Source: an uncultured Erysipelotrichaceae bacterium (GTDB taxonomy: Bacteria > Bacillota_I > Bacilli_A > Erysipelotrichales > Erysipelotrichaceae). Taken from it: 54,183 nt of DNA. The notes under the pieces were generated by a model. The model ran no database searches. It was not told where the DNA came from and saw nothing but the letters and a program-made list of their open reading frames with translations. The position numbers were made by a program, and so were the translations under genes. Positions 7,867 to 19,101 of this stretch are shown in pieces. The stretch's first letter is position 1. Every line of letters starts with the position of its first letter. The stretch is taken from assembly GCA_902786245.1 (NCBI GenBank), contig CADABS010000008.1, positions 1 to 54,183 on the forward strand, read 5' to 3'.

Positions 7867-9420
7867 ATGCCGCATATTACAGCCGCCATTTTCGCTGGCA
7901 TTGTAGGTGTTTTGATCGGTATCGGCATTATGCTGATAGCCGGCAAAATGGGACTTGACCGGGCTCGTGAAAAGTCCCAGGACATTCTGGATGAAGCTAA
8001 TTCCAAAGCGGAAACCACTGTCCGTCAGGCAAGTCTTGACGGAAAGCAGCAGGTTTATGAAATGAAACTGCAGGCGGAGAAGGAACTGAAGAGTCAGCGC
8101 GACCGTATTCAGGCCACCGAGAACAAACTCGTCCGCCGCGAAGACAATCTGAATTACCGTGAGGAAAACCTTGTACAGAAGGAAAAGAAGGTCAGTGATA
8201 AAGAAAAACTGGCGGATAGCAAACTTGCAAATCTCAGCAAAATGGAAGAAGAACTGCAGCAGAAGATCGACAACCAGATCATCGTTCTGGAACGGGTTGC
8301 CGGCATGTCGCAGGAAGATGCAAAGAAAGAACTGATGCAGATCGTCGAAAAGCGCACGGAAAAGGAAATCGCGCAGTATCTGCATGAACAGCAGGAGGAA
8401 GCTGAAACAAAGGCGGCGGATAATGCCCGCAACATTATCTCGCTGGCAATTCAGCGCTACTCGCAGGAAGAAACGATCGAGCGCACTGTCTCAACCGTAA
8501 CGCTTCCGTCCGAAGAAATGAAAGGCCGGATCATCGGCCGTGAAGGCCGCAACATCAAGGCAATCGAACAGGCGACCGGTGTCGATCTGATCATCGATGA
8601 CACACCGGATATCATCACGGTATCCTGCTTCGATCCGATCCGCAGAGAAATCGCAAGACAGTCTCTGGAAATCCTGATGAAGGACGGACGCATCCAGCCG
8701 GGCCGCATCGAGGAAGTCGTGGAGAAGGTCACCAGGGAAATGGATGAGACGATCCTGAAGATCGGCAATGACGCTGTCTTCCAGCTCGGGATCGGCCGTA
8801 TGAATAAGGAACTGATCAAGCTGGTCGGACGGCTGCGTTTCCGCTACAGCTACGGTCAGAACGGTCTTGAACATTCCATGGAAGTGGCTGCGTTTGCCGG
8901 TATGATGGCAGCGGAACTCGGTCTCAACCAGAATCTTGCCAAGCGGGCAGGTCTTCTGCACGATATCGGCAAGGCACTGGATTTCGAGCAGGAAGGCTCC
9001 CATGTGGAACTCGGTGCCAGAGTTGCCAAGAAATACGGTGAAAATGCAATCATCGTCAATTCGATCGAAAGCCATCACGGCGACAGCGAACCGCAGGATA
9101 TCATCGCGGTGCTGGTCGCGGCGGCAGATACGCTGTCGGCTGCCCGTCCCGGTGCCCGCTATGAATCGATGGAAGGCTATATCAACCGTCTGGAAATGCT
9201 CGAGAAAGTCGCATCCGGATTTGACGGTGTCGACAAGGCATTCGCAATCCAGGCAGGACGCGAAGTCCGGGTTCTGGTCAAGCCGGATAAAGTCGATGAC
9301 ATCGGCATGGTGAAGATTGCCCACGATATCCGTGAGAAGATCGAAAATGAAATGACATATCCGGGTCAGATCAAGGTAACGCTGATCCGCGAAGTCAGAG
9401 TCCAGGAACTTGCAAAATAA
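7867..9420 (+). CDS. rny: Ribonuclease Y
   Basis: A 517-residue membrane-anchored endoribonuclease that starts mRNA decay. One N-terminal membrane helix (about 5-25) is followed by a long coiled coil (30-200), a KH domain with GRIIGREGRNIKAIEQATG around residue 220, and an HD domain with the HSMEVA and LLHDIGKALD segments (about 335-370). Length and domain order match the family. TGGAGG precedes ATG. It has its own promoter; the B. subtilis order recA-rny-ymdB is kept here but with inserted genes. Confidence 0.97.
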   Translation: MPHITAAIFAGIVGVLIGIGIMLIAGKMGLDRAREKSQDILDEANSKAETTVRQASLDGKQQVYEMKLQAEKELKSQRDRIQATENKLVRREDNLNYREENLVQKEKKVSDKEKLADSKLANLSKMEEELQQKIDNQIIVLERVAGMSQEDAKKELMQIVEKRTEKEIAQYLHEQQEEAETKAADNARNIISLAIQRYSQEETIERTVSTVTLPSEEMKGRIIGREGRNIKAIEQATGVDLIIDDTPDIITVSCFDPIRREIARQSLEILMKDGRIQPGRIEEVVEKVTREMDETILKIGNDAVFQLGIGRMNKELIKLVGRLRFRYSYGQNGLEHSMEVAAFAGMMAAELGLNQNLAKRAGLLHDIGKALDFEQEGSHVELGARVAKKYGENAIIVNSIESHHGDSEPQDIIAVLVAAADTLSAARPGARYESMEGYINRLEMLEKVASGFDGVDKAFAIQAGREVRVLVKPDKVDDIGMVKIAHDIREKIENEMTYPGQIKVTLIREVRVQELAK

Positions 9421-10310: not shown

Positions 10311-11807
10311 ATGAGTGAACGGACGTATATATGCATTGATCTGAAATCATTCTATGCCTCGGCCGAATGCGTAGCCCGGGGACTGGATCCGCTGAAGGAG
10401 AATCTGGTCGTGGCCGATGAGAGCCGGACAGACAAAACGATCTGCCTGGCAGTTTCACCGACGCTGAAGAGCTTCGGTATTTCCGGGCGTCCGCGTCTTT
10501 TCGAAGTGCGCCAGAAGGTCCGCGAGATCAACCGGCGCCGTCTGTATAAAACAAAAACAGGCCGCTTTACCGGTCTTTCCGCCAATATCGATGAACTGGA
10601 AAAGAATCCGGATTTCGAACTGGCTTTTCATATTGCCGTGCCGCGGATGGCAGAGTATATCGCAATCAGTTCCGGCATTTATCAGATCTATCTGAAATAT
10701 ATCGCCCCGGAAGATATTCATGTCTATTCGATTGATGAAGTTTTTATCGATGCGACCGGGTATCTGAAAACATACGGGATGAGCGGCCATGAGCTGGCGA
10801 TGGCGATGATCCGCGATGTGCTGCGGACGACCGGCATTACGGCAACCGCCGGCATCGGTACGAATATGTATCTGGCCAAGGTCGCCATGGATATCGTCGC
10901 CAAGCATATACCGGCTGATGAAGACGGGGTGCGCATTGCTGAGCTCGATGAGATCAGCTACCGCGAGAAGCTCTGGGAACATACGCCGCTGACCGATTTC
11001 TGGCGGATCGGCAGGGGAACCGTGCGCCGTCTTGAAGAAGCCGGTCTGCATACGATGGGAGATATTGCCGTGTGTTCAGCCGGCGATCCTTCCGACCGGT
11101 ACAATGCCGAGCTGCTGTATCAATTGTTCGGTATCAATGCCGAACTGCTCATCGATCATGCCTGGGGATATGAACCCTGCACCATGGCGGATATCAAGGC
11201 ATATAAGCCGGATGCCTCCAGCATCTCCAGCGGTCAGGTACTGGCTGAAGGATATGAAAAAAGCAAGGCAAAGATCATCATCCGGGAAATGGCGGAATCG
11301 CTGATCCTCGATCTGGTCGATCACGGTCTCAAGGCCAGGGGTGCAGGTCTGGCACTGTCCTATGATTCCGAGTCTTTTGAAACGGAAGGGGCTGTCAGGG
11401 AAACCGGAAAAGACTATTACGGAAGGACCGTTCCGAAGGGAACGCACGGGGCGGTGAAATTCGATATCTGGACCGATTCGAGAAAAAAGATCATGGATGC
11501 GCTGCTTGCCATATTCGAACAGAAGGCAGATCCGGCGCTGCTGATCCGCAGGATCAATCTGTCGCTCAATGATGTCCTGCCGGCCGGGAAAGCAGAGCAG
11601 ATGGCTGCCGGACGGCAGATCAGCCTGTTTGATGCGCCGGAAACGGAACAGCAGGAAGAAGACCAGGAAAAGGAACTGAATGCACTCAGGGCAGTACTGC
11701 AGATCCGGAAGAAATACGGACGCAATGCGGTGCTGAAGGGTACAGACCTGGAAGAAGGGGCGACCGGCAGAGAGCGCAATGCCCAGATCGGGGGACATAA
11801 AGCATGA
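10311..11807 (+). CDS. Y-family translesion DNA polymerase (UmuC/UvrX type)
   Basis: A 498-residue polymerase. The palm motifs IDLKSFYASAE (about residues 9-19) and SIDEVFID (about 139-146) supply the catalytic acidic residues, and a TAGIGTNMYLAKVA helix-hairpin-helix-like block follows. A C-terminal little-finger region ends in a region with QISLFD, which resembles a beta-clamp binding motif. It is of the UvrX/YqjW type rather than DinB/PolIV. The ATG of the YolD-like gene overlaps its TGA by four bases, the usual polymerase-YolD pair. Expected role is DNA-damage tolerance. Confidence 0.88.
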   Translation: MSERTYICIDLKSFYASAECVARGLDPLKENLVVADESRTDKTICLAVSPTLKSFGISGRPRLFEVRQKVREINRRRLYKTKTGRFTGLSANIDELEKNPDFELAFHIAVPRMAEYIAISSGIYQIYLKYIAPEDIHVYSIDEVFIDATGYLKTYGMSGHELAMAMIRDVLRTTGITATAGIGTNMYLAKVAMDIVAKHIPADEDGVRIAELDEISYREKLWEHTPLTDFWRIGRGTVRRLEEAGLHTMGDIAVCSAGDPSDRYNAELLYQLFGINAELLIDHAWGYEPCTMADIKAYKPDASSISSGQVLAEGYEKSKAKIIIREMAESLILDLVDHGLKARGAGLALSYDSESFETEGAVRETGKDYYGRTVPKGTHGAVKFDIWTDSRKKIMDALLAIFEQKADPALLIRRINLSLNDVLPAGKAEQMAAGRQISLFDAPETEQQEEDQEKELNALRAVLQIRKKYGRNAVLKGTDLEEGATGRERNAQIGGHKA

Positions 11808-12260: not shown

Positions 12261-12331
12261 ACATGCAGGTGAGGTATTCACCAGGACTCGGCGGACATCT
12301 GCCGGTTCCGGAAGGGTTTATAAGGTTTATA

Positions 12332-13105
12332 ATGAATATCCTGTTTTTGGGAGACGTGGTCGCAAAAAGCGGCCGCGAAGCAGTGCTCAGACAGCTTGGC
12401 TCACTGAAGGAAGAGTATTCAGCCGATTTTACAATTGTAAATGCCGAAAATGCAGCGCACGGCAAGGGAATCACTCCGAAAATCTACAGCAGTCTGATTA
12501 AGGCCGGTGCCGATGTCATCACACTTGGAAACCATGCATTTTCCAAGAAAGAAATGATTCAGGAAATCGATACATGTTCCTTCATGGTCCGTCCGGTCAA
12601 TATGGAACCAACGGAAGCCGGAAATATTATCGTGATCCGCAGGTTCAAAGACCTGCGTATTGCAGTGGTCAATATCCTCGGCAAAGCATTCATGAGCGGC
12701 ATTACGGATGATCCGATCCCGGCGATGGAAAAGCTTCTGCCGCAGATCAGGGCGGATATCATCATCGTTGATTATCATGGCGAAGCGACCAGTGAGAAGA
12801 TGATGTTTACAAAGTATTTCAGCAGCCGGGTGACCGCGGTCATCGGTACGCATACGCATGTGCAGACGGCGGATGAAAGAATCATCGACGGATGCGCGTT
12901 TATTACGGATGCCGGCATGTGCGGCGCCTATGACAGTATTCTCGGCCGCGATTCGAGCGAGGTCATGCAGCATATGATCGAAGGAAAGTTGACCAGCTAT
13001 ACACCGGCCGGCGGTCCGGCAGTCATTTCCGGATGTCTGATCACGGTGGATGAGGAGACCTGCAGAGCGGTTTCGATCCGGCGGATCCAGAAGCGTCCGG
13101 CCTGA
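12332..13105 (+). CDS. ymdB: YmdB-family metallophosphoesterase
   Basis: A 257-residue calcineurin-like phosphodiesterase. MNILFLGDVVAKSGR supplies the first metal-binding Asp, IVNAENAAHGKG the Asn, LGNHAF the GNH motif, and DYHGEATSEK and GTHTHVQTAD the remaining His ligands. YmdB proteins hydrolyse cyclic nucleotides in vitro and affect RNase Y-linked regulation in B. subtilis, in line with its place after rny. Start 12332 is the family start; an upstream frame beginning at 12263 would overlap the promoter leader. AAGG lies six bases upstream. Confidence 0.93.
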   Translation: MNILFLGDVVAKSGREAVLRQLGSLKEEYSADFTIVNAENAAHGKGITPKIYSSLIKAGADVITLGNHAFSKKEMIQEIDTCSFMVRPVNMEPTEAGNIIVIRRFKDLRIAVVNILGKAFMSGITDDPIPAMEKLLPQIRADIIIVDYHGEATSEKMMFTKYFSSRVTAVIGTHTHVQTADERIIDGCAFITDAGMCGAYDSILGRDSSEVMQHMIEGKLTSYTPAGGPAVISGCLITVDEETCRAVSIRRIQKRPA

Positions 13106-13433: not shown

Positions 13434-13439
13434 TATAAT
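13434..13439 (+). promoter_or_regulatory. TATAAT overlapping the first ATG of miaB
   Basis: TATAAT (13434-13439) includes the first miaB ATG (13438). A transcript from it would start near 13446-13447, at the second in-frame ATG. The -35 region is poor. Confidence 0.4.
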
Positions 13440-14877
13440 GAAGCCCATGAAAAAAGATGAAAACTATATCCTGCCGGATCACGCGGCAGAAAGAAGACGT
13501 TCGCGCAATGCGGCAGAGACCGCTTTTTTTGAGATGGGCGAGCAGAACCGGATGGCCGGTCTGCATAAGAAATACTATATCCGCACATACGGCTGCCAGG
13601 CCAATGTCCGGGACGGGGAAACCATGGCCGGCATGCTGGAGATGATGGGATTTGAGAAAACAGAAGATATGCAGGAGGCGGATGTCCTTCTGTTCAATAC
13701 ATGTGCCGTTAGACAGGCTGCCGAGGAAAGAGTTCTCGGGGAGATCGGATCGCTGAAGCCGATGATCCTGGCACATCCGGAAAAGATCATCGGTCTTTGC
13801 GGATGCATGGCCCAGGAGGAAACGATCGTCCGCCGGGTGCTGCAGAAGTACCCCCAGGTAAAACTGATCTTCGGTACCCATAACATCCACCGCCTGCCGG
13901 ATCTGCTGAGCCAGGTGATGCATACCGGAAACAGAATGGTCGAAGTTCTTTCCGAAGAGGGAAAGATCGTCGAAAATCTGCCGGCGAAGCGCACCCAGCA
14001 GTACAAGGCTTTTGTCAATATCATGTACGGCTGCAACAAGTTCTGCACCTACTGCATCGTTCCCTATACCAGAGGCAAGGAGCGTTCCCGGACCAGACAG
14101 GATATTCTGCGGGAGATCCGGGATCTGCAGGAAAACGGCTGCCGGGAAGCGGTACTGCTCGGGCAGAACGTCAATGCCTACGGCAAAGATCTCAATGAAA
14201 CAGACGGATTCACCGCGCTCCTGCGGGACTGTGCCAGGACGGGCATCGACCGGATCCGTTTCTATACCAGCCATCCCCGCGATTACAGTTCGGCGACGAT
14301 CGATGTCATGCGGGAATATCCCAATATCATGCCGTCCCTGCATCTGCCGGTGCAGTCCGGCAGCGATGCCATCCTGAAGCGGATGAACCGCGGCTATACG
14401 GCAGAAAGCTATATGCGCCTGTATGATGAAATGAAGGAAAAGATTCCCGGCATTACGTTCACCACCGATCTGATCGTCGGCTTCCCGGATGAAAGCGATG
14501 AAGACTTTGAAGATACGCTGAAACTGGTCGATTACTGCCGTTTTGATCTTGCCTATTCCTTTATCTATTCGCCCCGGGAAGGTACGCCGGCCGCATCCAT
14601 GCCCGACAGTATTCCCATGGAAGTCAAGAAGGAGCGTCTGCAGATCCTCAACAGCCGGCTGGCGCAGTATGCCAATGAGAACAATCAGCGCTTCAAAGGC
14701 CAGGTCCTGGAGGTGCTGTGCGAAGGATCTTCGAAGAAGAACGATGACGTTTACAGCGGCTACAGCCGGGAAAACAAACTGGTGAATTTCAGGGCAGACA
14801 GAAATCCTGAGGGAGAACTGGTGAATGTTGAAATTACGGACATTCACAGTTTTTCGCTGGACGGGAAAGCATTGTGA
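13438..14877 (+). CDS. miaB: tRNA-2-methylthio-N6-dimethylallyladenosine synthase MiaB
   Basis: A 479-residue radical-SAM methylthiotransferase that modifies A37 of tRNAs reading UNN codons. The N-terminal UPF0004 cluster ligands are in YGCQANVRDGE, FNTCAVR and LCGCMAQ. The radical SAM motif is CNKFCTYC, followed by a C-terminal TRAM domain. Length is normal with an N-terminal extension. GAAAGG lies upstream of ATG 13438, but a TATAAT box covers that codon; ATG 13447 (MKKDENY) is the alternative start if the box is used. The B. subtilis ymdB-miaB neighbourhood is retained. Confidence 0.95.
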   Translation: MKPMKKDENYILPDHAAERRRSRNAAETAFFEMGEQNRMAGLHKKYYIRTYGCQANVRDGETMAGMLEMMGFEKTEDMQEADVLLFNTCAVRQAAEERVLGEIGSLKPMILAHPEKIIGLCGCMAQEETIVRRVLQKYPQVKLIFGTHNIHRLPDLLSQVMHTGNRMVEVLSEEGKIVENLPAKRTQQYKAFVNIMYGCNKFCTYCIVPYTRGKERSRTRQDILREIRDLQENGCREAVLLGQNVNAYGKDLNETDGFTALLRDCARTGIDRIRFYTSHPRDYSSATIDVMREYPNIMPSLHLPVQSGSDAILKRMNRGYTAESYMRLYDEMKEKIPGITFTTDLIVGFPDESDEDFEDTLKLVDYCRFDLAYSFIYSPREGTPAASMPDSIPMEVKKERLQILNSRLAQYANENNQRFKGQVLEVLCEGSSKKNDDVYSGYSRENKLVNFRADRNPEGELVNVEITDIHSFSLDGKAL

Positions 14878-14900: not shown

Positions 14901-14942
14901 ATTGACGATAAGAGAATTACCTTTATAAAGGAGACATAATTT

Positions 14943-16610
14943 ATGAGCAAAGTACGCATTTTTGCCCTTGGCGGACTCGATGAAGACGGCAAGAACATGT
15001 ATGTGGTAGAGAACGGCGACGATATCTTTGTCATGGAATGCGGTATGAAATATCCGGATGCCGGTCAGCTCGGCATTGAGATGATCATTCCCGATTTCCG
15101 CTATCTGTCCGAAAACAGAGACAGGATCAGAGCGGTATTCATTTCCCATGGCCACGATGATGTCATGGCGGCTCTGCCCAATCTGATCCGGGAGATCCCG
15201 AAAGTGCCTGTCTATATGGCGCCGCTGACAGCGCTGATGTTCGAGCGCAGAGCGAAGAAGCTGGGTCTGACGAATATGAACATCCACCGGATCATGCGCA
15301 ATGCGAAGTTCAAGATCGGCAGGACGGAGATCCGCACCTTCGGCACGACCCAGTCGATCGCCGACGGCTACGGTGTCGCGATCAAAACGGAAGACGGCTA
15401 TGTCGTCTATTCATCGGAATTCATCGTTGACTATGATACAAAAGAAGAAGCGTTCAAATTTGATATTTCCAATGTCACGGATCTCGGTACGGCCGGTGTA
15501 CTGGCACTGATGTGCGAGTCGGTCGGTGCGACCAGGGACGGACACAGTGCGCCGCATCACCGCATCACCGGAATGATCGAGCAGTATTTTGAAGATTCGC
15601 CGGGCCGGATGTTCATTACGCTGTTCAACCAGAACATCTACCGCGTGATCGAGGTCGTTGAGCTGGCAAACAAGTACAACCGGAAGGTCATGATCTATGA
15701 TACGGAACTGCGCAATGAGCTGGCGGATATGGCCAAACTGGGCTATTATCATATTCCGGCAGGTCTGGAGATCGCACCGAGCGCCTTCCGCAATGATATT
15801 GATAATGTCATCGTGATCATTGCCGGAACCGGATCGAGCATCTTCCGCAAGGTGCACCGCATCGCAACAAAGGAAGATGAGAACATCGAACTGCGCTCCA
15901 CCGATACGGTCATCATCGCTTCTCCGGCAGTGCCGGGCACGGAACGCGAAGAAGCGGGCATGGAAGATGATCTTTACAAAGAGGCAGGCAGAGTTCTGAC
16001 CGTCGATGCCAAGCGCACCTTCACGATGCATGCGGCGATCGAAGATCTGAAGATGATGATCTACCTGATGAAGCCGAAGTTCTATATTCCGGTCAAAGGC
16101 GAATACCGTCATCTGATCGCCAACGCGAACATTGCCCTGGATATGGGCTATAATGCGGATAAGATCATCGTCATGGACAACGGCCAGGCAGCGGTGATCA
16201 CCGACGGCGAACTTTCCCGTTCGTTCGACAGCATTCCGGTCGACAATGTTCTGGTCGATGGCAATGACAGACTGGATGAGAGCGGCATGATCCTCAAAGA
16301 CAGAGAACTGCTGAGCACGGATGGTGCTATAATCGTAGGGATTGTCATGAATCACGCGACCAAGGAGATCATCGGCGGTCCGGATGTGCAGAGCCGCGGC
16401 GTCATCTACCTGAAAGACGCGGATTACATTGTCCGGGAGATCGGCAATATCATGGAGACAACGATCAACGACGCTGTCAGAGACGGCCGTTATGACAATA
16501 TGAGCTGCCGGGCGGAAGCACGGGAAAAGATCAGCCGCTATGTCATGCGGGAAACAGGCAAGCGTCCGATGATCCTGCCGGCGATCGTTGAGATCAATAC
16601 AGTGGATTAA
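14943..16610 (+). CDS. RNase J homologue with degenerate active site (RNase J2-like)
   Basis: A 555-residue metallo-beta-lactamase/beta-CASP protein of full RNase J length, ending in the usual C-terminal domain. The metal-binding core is altered. The H-x-H-x-D-H motif reads HGHDDV (residues 69-74). The expected F-x-x-N-H-S reads GTTQS (134-138), HTGDF reads YSSEF (156-160), and HGEYR reads KGEYR (385-389); His363 of the SGH region remains. It is likely poorly active or structural, like RNase J2 subunits that work with J1. A place just upstream of ftsK/spoIIIE matches that of rnjB in B. subtilis. AAGGAG precedes ATG. Confidence 0.85.
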   Translation: MSKVRIFALGGLDEDGKNMYVVENGDDIFVMECGMKYPDAGQLGIEMIIPDFRYLSENRDRIRAVFISHGHDDVMAALPNLIREIPKVPVYMAPLTALMFERRAKKLGLTNMNIHRIMRNAKFKIGRTEIRTFGTTQSIADGYGVAIKTEDGYVVYSSEFIVDYDTKEEAFKFDISNVTDLGTAGVLALMCESVGATRDGHSAPHHRITGMIEQYFEDSPGRMFITLFNQNIYRVIEVVELANKYNRKVMIYDTELRNELADMAKLGYYHIPAGLEIAPSAFRNDIDNVIVIIAGTGSSIFRKVHRIATKEDENIELRSTDTVIIASPAVPGTEREEAGMEDDLYKEAGRVLTVDAKRTFTMHAAIEDLKMMIYLMKPKFYIPVKGEYRHLIANANIALDMGYNADKIIVMDNGQAAVITDGELSRSFDSIPVDNVLVDGNDRLDESGMILKDRELLSTDGAIIVGIVMNHATKEIIGGPDVQSRGVIYLKDADYIVREIGNIMETTINDAVRDGRYDNMSCRAEAREKISRYVMRETGKRPMILPAIVEINTVD

Positions 16611-16614
16611 AAGA

Positions 16615-19101
16615 ATGGCAAGAAAAACTAGGAAACAGCTTGAAATTGAAAAACAGAACAGGGAACGCATGCAATGGATCACGATTGTGATCCTTTCTGC
16701 GTTTATTCTGCTCGGATTCTTCCGGCTCGGGGCGGTCGGCATTTTTCTGTCCGGTCTGCAGAGACTGCTTTTCGGCGATCTGTACTGGCTGATCCTGGCA
16801 GCGGTGATCCTCTGCCTGATCATGCGGATGCGCAGAGGGGAAGGCGGTACAGGCCTGCGCAGCCCGGTGCCGTATATCCTGATCAGTGCGGCGATCCTGC
16901 TGACCTGTACGTTCATCGATGCAGATCCGGAAGCTCCCGGCATGGATTTTTTCATGGATATTGCGGCTAATGCGAAGAACTTCTTTACCGGCATGCCGGA
17001 GAAGATCGGCGGCGGTCTGTGCGGCGGTCTGCTGTATGGCGCGGCTTCGCAGCTGTTCGGCAGAGCCGGCGTCATCCTGGTCATTACGGTACTGACCGTG
17101 ATCGCATTGTTACTGGCGGTGCCGGTCGATACGTATAAAGGTGCGGCAGCTTCCGTATTCGGTTTCTTCAAGCTGCCGGAAAAGCCGGTCAGAGAAGAAA
17201 AAGAAGAGCCCAAAGAAGCGCCGAATCTCTGGAAAATCGCCCAGGAACATAAAGAAAAGCGCCGCATGAAGATGATCGAAGCGGATGCGGAGACGGAAGA
17301 TACCGCCGGCATTCAGATGATGCATGAACCCGAACCGGCTGTACGGAAGGATGAACCGCATCTGACGACGCTGCTGAATATTACCGCCGACGGACCGACC
17401 CAGGAGATCCAGGTGGTATCGATTCCCGGTAAGACAATTTCTTCAAAGGAATCGGTTTTCATCAATATCGATGATCTCTATGACAGAGCGGAAAGCATTG
17501 ATTATGAAGAAGATTACGATGAGACGGAGATTCGTGCCTATGAAGAACCGGAACCCGAACCGTATGAAGAACCGGCGGTGATTGAAGAACCTGTCATCAA
17601 TGCGGAAACAAAAGAAGAGACTGCTCCGGCACCTGTATCATCCAAAAAACGCGAACCGTTCAAAAACTACCGGATCCCGGTTGCCGGACGTCTGCTGGAT
17701 GAGATCCAGAGGACCCAGGCCAATACGGAAAATGAACTTGCCGCAGCCGAAAAGGGCGAACTGCTGATTTCGATCCTGCGCAATTTCGATATCCCGGCAG
17801 AACTGGTGGCGACCCATATCGGACCGTCTGTCACCCAGTTTGAGATCCGTCCGGATGCCAATGTCAAGGTCAGCAGGATCCTGTCTCTGACCGACAATAT
17901 CAAGATGCAGCTGGCGGCCAGAGATGTCCGTATCGAAGCGCCGATTCCCGGCCGCAATGCCGTCGGCGTGGAAATACCGAATGCAAAGACGACACCGGTA
18001 AAGATGCGCGAACTGTTCAGGGAAATCCCGGCACCGGATGAGAAGAACCGCCTGATGTTCGTGTTGGGCAAGGATCTGCTCGGACGTACCGTAACCTGTC
18101 AGCTCAACAAGATGCCGCATATGCTGATCGCCGGTGCGACCGGATCGGGCAAATCGGTATGCATGAACTCGATCATCACATCGCTGCTTCTGCGGACGAA
18201 GCCGGATGAAGTCAAGCTTCTGCTGGTCGATCCGAAGAAAGTCGAATTCACGCCGTATCATGATATTCCCCACCTGATCGGTCCGGTCATCAATGATGCG
18301 ACCAAAGCGAGCAATGCCCTCAAGATCATCGTCCAGATCATGGATGAGCGCTATAACGTATTCGCATTGAGCGGGGTGCGGAATATCGAAGGCTACAACG
18401 AAATGGTGAAGAAGCAGGGCGGACGGCCGAATGAAGACGGTTCACCTGCACCCAAGCCGCTGCCGTATATCGTCGTGATCATCGATGAGCTGGCCGACCT
18501 GATGTCGGTTGCCGGCAAGGAAGTCGAGTCTTCGATCCAGCGCATCACGCAGCTGGCCAGAGCTGCCGGCATCCATCTGATCGTCGCCACCCAGAGACCT
18601 TCGGTCGATGTCATCACCGGCATCATCAAGGCGAATATCCCGAGCCGTATCGCATTTGCGGTATCTTCCGGCACGGATTCAAGGACGATCCTCGACCATG
18701 TCGGCGCGGAGCGTCTGCTCGGCAACGGCGATATGCTGTATATCCCGATCGGCCAGAATGCGCCGATGCGTGTGCAGGGTGTCTTTGTGACCGACCGCGA
18801 AGTCGAAGCGATCACATCCGATGTCAAGAAGAAGGCAAAGCCGGAATATGACGATCACTTCATCATGCTGGAAGGTGTCGAAGGAAACGGAGGCATTGTT
18901 TCGGCTTCCGAAGATCCGATGCTCGAAGAGATCAAGGAATATGTCATCGAAGCACAGAAAGCTTCCACGTCGCTGCTGCAGAGAAGATTCGGCATCGGCT
19001 ACAACCGGGCTGCAAGAATGATCGATGCCCTGGAAGAAGCAGGGGTCATCGGACCGGCCCAGGGCTCCAAGCCCAGAGAGGTATTTATCAAGAAAAAGTG
19101 A
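16615..19101 (+). CDS. ftsK: DNA translocase FtsK/SpoIIIE
   Basis: An 828-residue septal DNA pump. Four membrane helices occupy about residues 20-175, followed by an acidic, proline-rich linker (180-340). The RecA-like motor has Walker A GATGSGKS (about 506-513) and Walker B VVIIDELADLM (about 620-630). A winged-helix gamma domain with RRFGIGYNRAARMID ends the protein. It moves chromosomes through the closing septum; whether the cell sporulates cannot be judged here. ATG 16615 lies four bases after the RNase J stop and has no clear ribosome site, so translational coupling is likely. Confidence 0.96.
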   Translation: MARKTRKQLEIEKQNRERMQWITIVILSAFILLGFFRLGAVGIFLSGLQRLLFGDLYWLILAAVILCLIMRMRRGEGGTGLRSPVPYILISAAILLTCTFIDADPEAPGMDFFMDIAANAKNFFTGMPEKIGGGLCGGLLYGAASQLFGRAGVILVITVLTVIALLLAVPVDTYKGAAASVFGFFKLPEKPVREEKEEPKEAPNLWKIAQEHKEKRRMKMIEADAETEDTAGIQMMHEPEPAVRKDEPHLTTLLNITADGPTQEIQVVSIPGKTISSKESVFINIDDLYDRAESIDYEEDYDETEIRAYEEPEPEPYEEPAVIEEPVINAETKEETAPAPVSSKKREPFKNYRIPVAGRLLDEIQRTQANTENELAAAEKGELLISILRNFDIPAELVATHIGPSVTQFEIRPDANVKVSRILSLTDNIKMQLAARDVRIEAPIPGRNAVGVEIPNAKTTPVKMRELFREIPAPDEKNRLMFVLGKDLLGRTVTCQLNKMPHMLIAGATGSGKSVCMNSIITSLLLRTKPDEVKLLLVDPKKVEFTPYHDIPHLIGPVINDATKASNALKIIVQIMDERYNVFALSGVRNIEGYNEMVKKQGGRPNEDGSPAPKPLPYIVVIIDELADLMSVAGKEVESSIQRITQLARAAGIHLIVATQRPSVDVITGIIKANIPSRIAFAVSSGTDSRTILDHVGAERLLGNGDMLYIPIGQNAPMRVQGVFVTDREVEAITSDVKKKAKPEYDDHFIMLEGVEGNGGIVSASEDPMLEEIKEYVIEAQKASTSLLQRRFGIGYNRAARMIDALEEAGVIGPAQGSKPREVFIKKK

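Follow-up and report, generated by a model that had tools for sequence, protein, structure and literature searches.

An RNase J2 of Erysipelotrichales with replaced metal ligands and RNA contacts, a probable partner subunit of RNase J1

The open reading frame at positions 14943–16610 (forward strand) of the window analyzed here, a 54,183-nucleotide stretch of contig CADABS010000008.1 from the 2.75-Mb MAG of a Solobacterium-like gut bacterium of the Erysipelotrichaceae, encodes a 555-residue RNase J homologue in which four of the seven canonical metal ligands, and most of the residues with which the β-CASP domain contacts RNA, have been replaced. The gene is rnjB, a vertical orthologue of Bacillota RNase J2, and it is under purifying selection in a genome that also encodes an intact J1. 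From comparison of these sequences with those of characterized enzymes, we consider it probable that this J2 is a partner of J1 that itself catalyzes little or nothing. In the mechanism that we propose, J2 of the Erysipelotrichales lineage has lost its second catalytic metal, has seen the first weakened, and has given up the canonical RNA contacts of the β-CASP clamp; such a protein would form assemblies with the cell's own intact J1 and, as has been proposed for S. aureus J2, may support the 5'-exonuclease activity of that J1. The protein itself would then be without exonuclease activity, while that it binds and stimulates J1 is what we infer from other species.

Membership in the RNase J family of β-CASP metallo-β-lactamases follows from a full-length model match together with the domain set. 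The NCBIfam subfamily model TIGR00649 gives 404.1 bits, narrowly above the cut-off of 400, with 545 of its 546 positions covered, and the Pfam domains RNase_J_b_CASP and RNase_J_C both score above their cut-offs; on the J1-specific model NF047419 the protein reaches 416, far below the required 820. A Shine-Dalgarno sequence (AAAGGAG, 14927–14933, forward strand) stands 9 nt 5' of the ATG. The AF2 model of the protein (pLDDT 86.7) matches RNase J structures with Z of 43–49 and superposes on S. epidermidis J2 (6k6w) with an rmsd of 2.0 Å over 436 residues, and by Foldseek E-value its best match is chain A, the first one, in the integrative J2-J1 model of B. subtilis (9a5v); we presume this chain to be J2 because of how the entry is titled and because its identity is the higher. 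Both the RNase J fold and the C-terminal domain have been retained. A pseudogene or assembly error was considered and set aside, the frame being intact in ~30 genomes of the same genus with a dN/dS of ~0.1; against close relatives the values are 0.09–0.11 for J2 and 0.05–0.08 for J1.

In a maximum-likelihood tree of 42 sequences rooted on Chloroflexota RNase J, the window protein falls with Bacillales J2 and S. epidermidis J2 into a single J2 clade (bootstrap 100, SH-aLRT 98), whose members come from Salibacterium, Exiguobacterium (where all seven ligands are intact), Psychrobacillus/Macrococcus/Staphylococcus, an RF39-like lineage, and two Erysipelotrichales families. J1, including the B. subtilis and S. 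epidermidis proteins, forms a separate clade (100/100). An independent, non-J2 duplication within Erysipelotrichia had seemed possible on a first, unrooted tree, and was rejected when the outgroup root placed the protein in the J2 clade. The ftsK/spoIIIE gene (16615–19101, forward strand; NCBIfam FtsK match) starts 4 nt past the rnjB stop codon, and this adjacency, looked for in 12 other genomes, recurs in 11: three other Erysipelotrichaceae genera, three genomes of the sister family, and five Bacillales (Staphylococcus, Macrococcus, Psychrobacillus, Exiguobacterium and Salibacterium). In the single RF39-like MAG checked (L260), ftsK was not found beside J2. Because the protein sits in the J2 clade and its gene adjoins ftsK, the gene is rnjB in ancestry as well as in location, which bears out an earlier note that had named it from its place upstream of ftsK. 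On its other side the gene is flanked by miaB (13438–14877, forward strand; NCBIfam match and synteny comparison), with a TIGR00282 phosphoesterase (12263–13105) and RNase Y (7867–9420) also upstream. The same part of the window holds, upstream of RNA-metabolism genes, a Y-family (DinB/UmuC-like) DNA polymerase (10311–11807) that falls below all named NCBIfam cut-offs, and a 131-residue open reading frame at 11804 overlaps the end of its gene.

In an alignment to B. subtilis J1 (3zq4) and to S. epidermidis J1 (6k6s) and J2 (6k6w), the window protein retains the J1 ligands H74, H76 and D78 as its own H69, H71 and D73; it lacks the full two-metal ligand set, since the remaining four, H79, H142, D164 and H390, are replaced. 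All of the motifs concerned lie on the forward strand. HGHDDV (15147–15164) holds the three retained ligands and, at its end, V74 for H79; TTQS (15345–15356) has Q137 for H142, a first-metal histidine lost repeatedly in the family; YSSEF (15408–15422) has E159 for the bridging ligand D164, the one conservative change of the four; and KGEYR (16095–16109) has K385 for H390. The 5'-phosphate histidine, H368 of J1, is kept as H363 (16029–16031). The earlier note had read these four motifs correctly from the translated sequence and had counted at least four differing ligand positions, which the alignment gives as four of seven; the intact rnjA that it proposed looking for elsewhere in the genome lies at C4:85828–87465 and encodes a canonical J1 whose seven ligands are all present. 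In 29 of 29 same-genus relatives examined besides the window (independent MAGs, 68–86% identical), V stands at H79, E at D164 and K at H390, and position 142 holds a residue other than histidine; because of this, and of the dN/dS given above, the changes reflect neither sequencing error nor chance.

Three of the four substitutions are of a kind already known for J2. The S. epidermidis protein carries H79→A, D164→E and H390→Q together with D78→H, yet it still binds one Mn2+, through H76, H78, H80, H144 and E166, and is reported to be active in vitro (PMC7864078), while the authors of a study of E. faecalis J2 remark that second-site residues are not conserved in J2s (PMC5383250). The idea that an RNase J of proven activity would not share the substitutions of the window protein thus holds only in part: S. 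epidermidis J2, reported as active, has lost H79, D164 and H390 as well (PMC7864078), and H142→Q is the new element. Beyond these losses, staphylococcal J2 resembles the window protein in its clade, its ftsK neighbor and its fold, but it has H142, a histidine for D78, and the β-CASP motifs GRSL and GMQGEP, where the window protein has Q137, D73 and K385 and has lost the RNA-contact motifs. E. faecalis J2 shares H69, H71 and D73 in the same motif; exonuclease activity has been measured for it and requires both H69 and H71 (PMC5383250). With B. subtilis J1 and the J1 of its own genome, finally, the window protein has in common the fold, the domain order, and H74, H76, D78 and H368, but those J1 proteins have seven ligands and all RNA contacts, where it is without H79, H142, D164, H390, S233, S258, E303 and G367.

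Across 78 Erysipelotrichaceae J2 sequences, D73 and H363 never vary, and H69 (77/78), H71 (76/78), E159 and E192 (75/78 each) are near-invariant, while position 137 shows average variability. Among the Zn-2 ligands, H79 is replaced in all 78 sequences and H390 in 73, with K385 standing in 69 and H, M, R or S sometimes found elsewhere. H142 is kept in 20 of 20 sister-family sequences and in 38 of the 78 from Erysipelotrichaceae, a family in which the culturable species Dielma fastidiosa has it too, the remainder having Q, M, N, T or E; parsimony requires six changes between histidine and its absence, or at least four when only branches with support of at least 95 are trusted. The second metal site is therefore gone and the first weakened but not erased, so that decay has been uneven. 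Read off the tree, early J2 was intact or nearly so, and H79, D164 and H390 changed before the Staphylococcus-type, RF39-like and Erysipelotrichales J2 proteins parted, the norm in the last being V74 (or A, M, L, I or S), E159 and K385. A histidine of the HxH pair has been lost as well in a few cases, H76→N in two species and H74→Q in one, and these loci (L225, L191, L192) have the most decayed metal sites seen. The RF39-like J2 proteins (L094, L095, L096, L116), sister group of Erysipelotrichales J2 (100/100), resemble the window protein in having lost ligands and β-CASP motifs, but their replacements differ (D78→Q/E/N, H79→Q/Y, D164→N, H390→I/N/T, and in L095 also H142→Y).

What has been retained bears on the main rival to the partner reading, namely that the protein is a weak nuclease with a single metal on H69, H71, D73 and E159 (perhaps also Q137), a slow endo- or exonuclease in the manner of S. 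epidermidis J2. Four of the five one-Mn positions of the S. epidermidis type are still potential ligands, three of them identical (H69, H71, E159) and D73 a plausible one, and a site of this kind could survive partly in Erysipelotrichaceae J2. That these four residues are kept in 75–78 of 78 sequences is beyond what a merely decaying site would be expected to keep and counts against the partner reading, as do the reported activity of S. epidermidis J2 with the equivalent positions and that of M. tuberculosis RNase J H148A, altered at the H142 position (PMC10119312); the invariance of H363, in the 5'-phosphate pocket, fits a nuclease too. Yet Q137 is a poor ligand, the fifth ligand has been lost over and over to M, T, N, Q and E, one of the HxH histidines is replaced in three species, and the RNA-contact residues are gone. 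We regard a weak single-metal nuclease as unlikely. In support of a J1 partner, M. tuberculosis RNase J became almost inactive when alanine was put in place of its Zn-2 ligands (PMC10119312), the ligands that Erysipelotrichaceae J2 has replaced, and H142 has changed at least four times on well-supported branches while D73 and H363 stayed fixed. The structural or regulatory role suggested in the earlier note is the likeliest reading; a purely structural one is not proven by the ligands alone, because the H148A mutant kept its activity.

The residues that hold RNA are those described for RNA-bound M. tuberculosis RNase J (PMC10119312), with B. subtilis numbers obtained by subtracting 7. By this standard the window protein fails to show the contact set expected of a catalytically competent two-metal RNase J: it has E77→D, S233→Q, S258→E, T298→A, E303→S, S332→P, G367→M and H390→K, keeps only H368 exactly, and has a conservative threonine (T361) for S366. 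Two stretches of the forward strand are affected most visibly, YDTEL (15696–15710) for FGRSM of J1, with S258 become E255, and AGTGSS (15822–15839) for TGSQGE, with E303 become S299. Most of these changes are common to the family and its sister family, S233→Q, S258→D/E and loss of GSQGE being general in Erysipelotrichales J2; within Erysipelotrichaceae, Q230 is found in 76 of 78 sequences and M362 in 71, S258 is mostly E or D, and E303 has given way to N, S, T and others. J1 retains the contacts, and Staphylococcus-type J2 retains most of them. Because the phosphate-binding serine S258 is acidic in most members, RNA in the usual channel should be disfavored, which argues against its lying there in Erysipelotrichales J2. 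As far as we have found, a loss of RNA contacts on this scale exceeds anything described for a J2. It also makes improbable a second alternative, a sensor that, no longer cleaving, would bind RNA at the 5' end and hand it over to J1: H363 and the S/T at 361 of the 5'-phosphate pocket have indeed been kept, but Q at S233, an acidic residue at S258, M at G367 and the missing GSQGE loop should disfavor RNA in the canonical channel. An RNA-binding role, also raised in the earlier note, is less likely by the canonical path for the same reason, the β-CASP phosphate contacts having been replaced.

Least credible, in our judgment, is a repurposed active site in which K385, E159, D73, E192 and H363 form a pocket with new chemistry or a new ligand (lysine in place of the second metal, for example, or small-molecule binding), since, for all the consistency of K385, E159, Q230 and M362 across two families and the co-variation of pocket positions 142 and 158 with H142 loss, that co-variation is not significant at four independent pairs, K385 is not constant, nothing independent points to a substrate or a pathway, and the genomic context is that of an ordinary rnjB. 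The search for co-substitution partners of H142 loss had associated positions 142, 158 and 80, and was given up on the same count of four independent pairs on supported branches.

The RNase_J_C domain (PF17770, an oligomerization domain; 16317–16598, forward strand) is the best-conserved domain of Erysipelotrichaceae J2, with a mean pairwise identity of 0.60 against 0.45 for the β-CASP domain, and J1 across Erysipelotrichales and Bacillales shows the reverse order. As a general J2 trait, however, this had to be rejected: it is true of the window's family and absent from J2 of the sister family, and for that reason we take the shift as weak, supporting evidence only.

As to the distribution of the gene, loss of J2 from some genomes was considered and not upheld, several of those without a full J2 match having a J2 that carries frameshifts or runs off the end of a contig. 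In some incomplete drafts (G001, G027 and G199, for example) a J2 was not found, and for two genomes listed as 98–99% complete (G086, G121) every RNase J query came back without a candidate, probably through a data gap. In one single-contig genome (G191, locus L250) rnjA and rnjB are both split by frameshifts, in a manner that resembles long-read sequencing error, and one Erysipelotrichaceae genome (G128) has, besides J2, an extra RNase J (L249) with intact ligands that groups with the Clostridia type and was possibly acquired, or belongs to a contaminant contig.

That J2 can have reduced metal sites and serve as a scaffold is already known. J1 and J2 form a complex in B. subtilis and in E. 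faecalis, with a Kd near 80 nM in either species, and in the latter neither H69A nor H71A in J2 abolishes the binding (PMC5383250); in S. aureus, cells with J2 H76A/H78A grow like wild type while deletion of J2 is harmful, and the authors propose a structural role (PMC3937233). What is new, as far as the literature searched shows, is the repeated loss of H142 and the order-wide loss of the β-CASP RNA-contact set; that search found no paper naming both RNase J and Erysipelotrichia, and nothing on RNase J pseudoenzymes. A stronger proposal, which we offer tentatively as quite conceivable if short of probable, is that Erysipelotrichales J2 is a true pseudo-nuclease that neither cuts RNA nor grips it canonically, its sole reason for persisting being that J1 needs it as a subunit, for assembly or allostery.

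Because most of the J2 proteins studied keep some activity, the purpose of RNase J2 has been hard to establish. A lineage in which the second metal and the RNA contacts are lost, H142 is lost repeatedly, and strong selection nonetheless maintains the gene in the company of an intact J1 would allow the scaffold role of J2 to be told apart from any catalytic one, and would make its J2 a clean protein for tests of J1 stimulation. If the pseudo-nuclease proposal is true, these proteins would be a natural, family-wide confirmation of a structural-partner model built on mutants of S. aureus.
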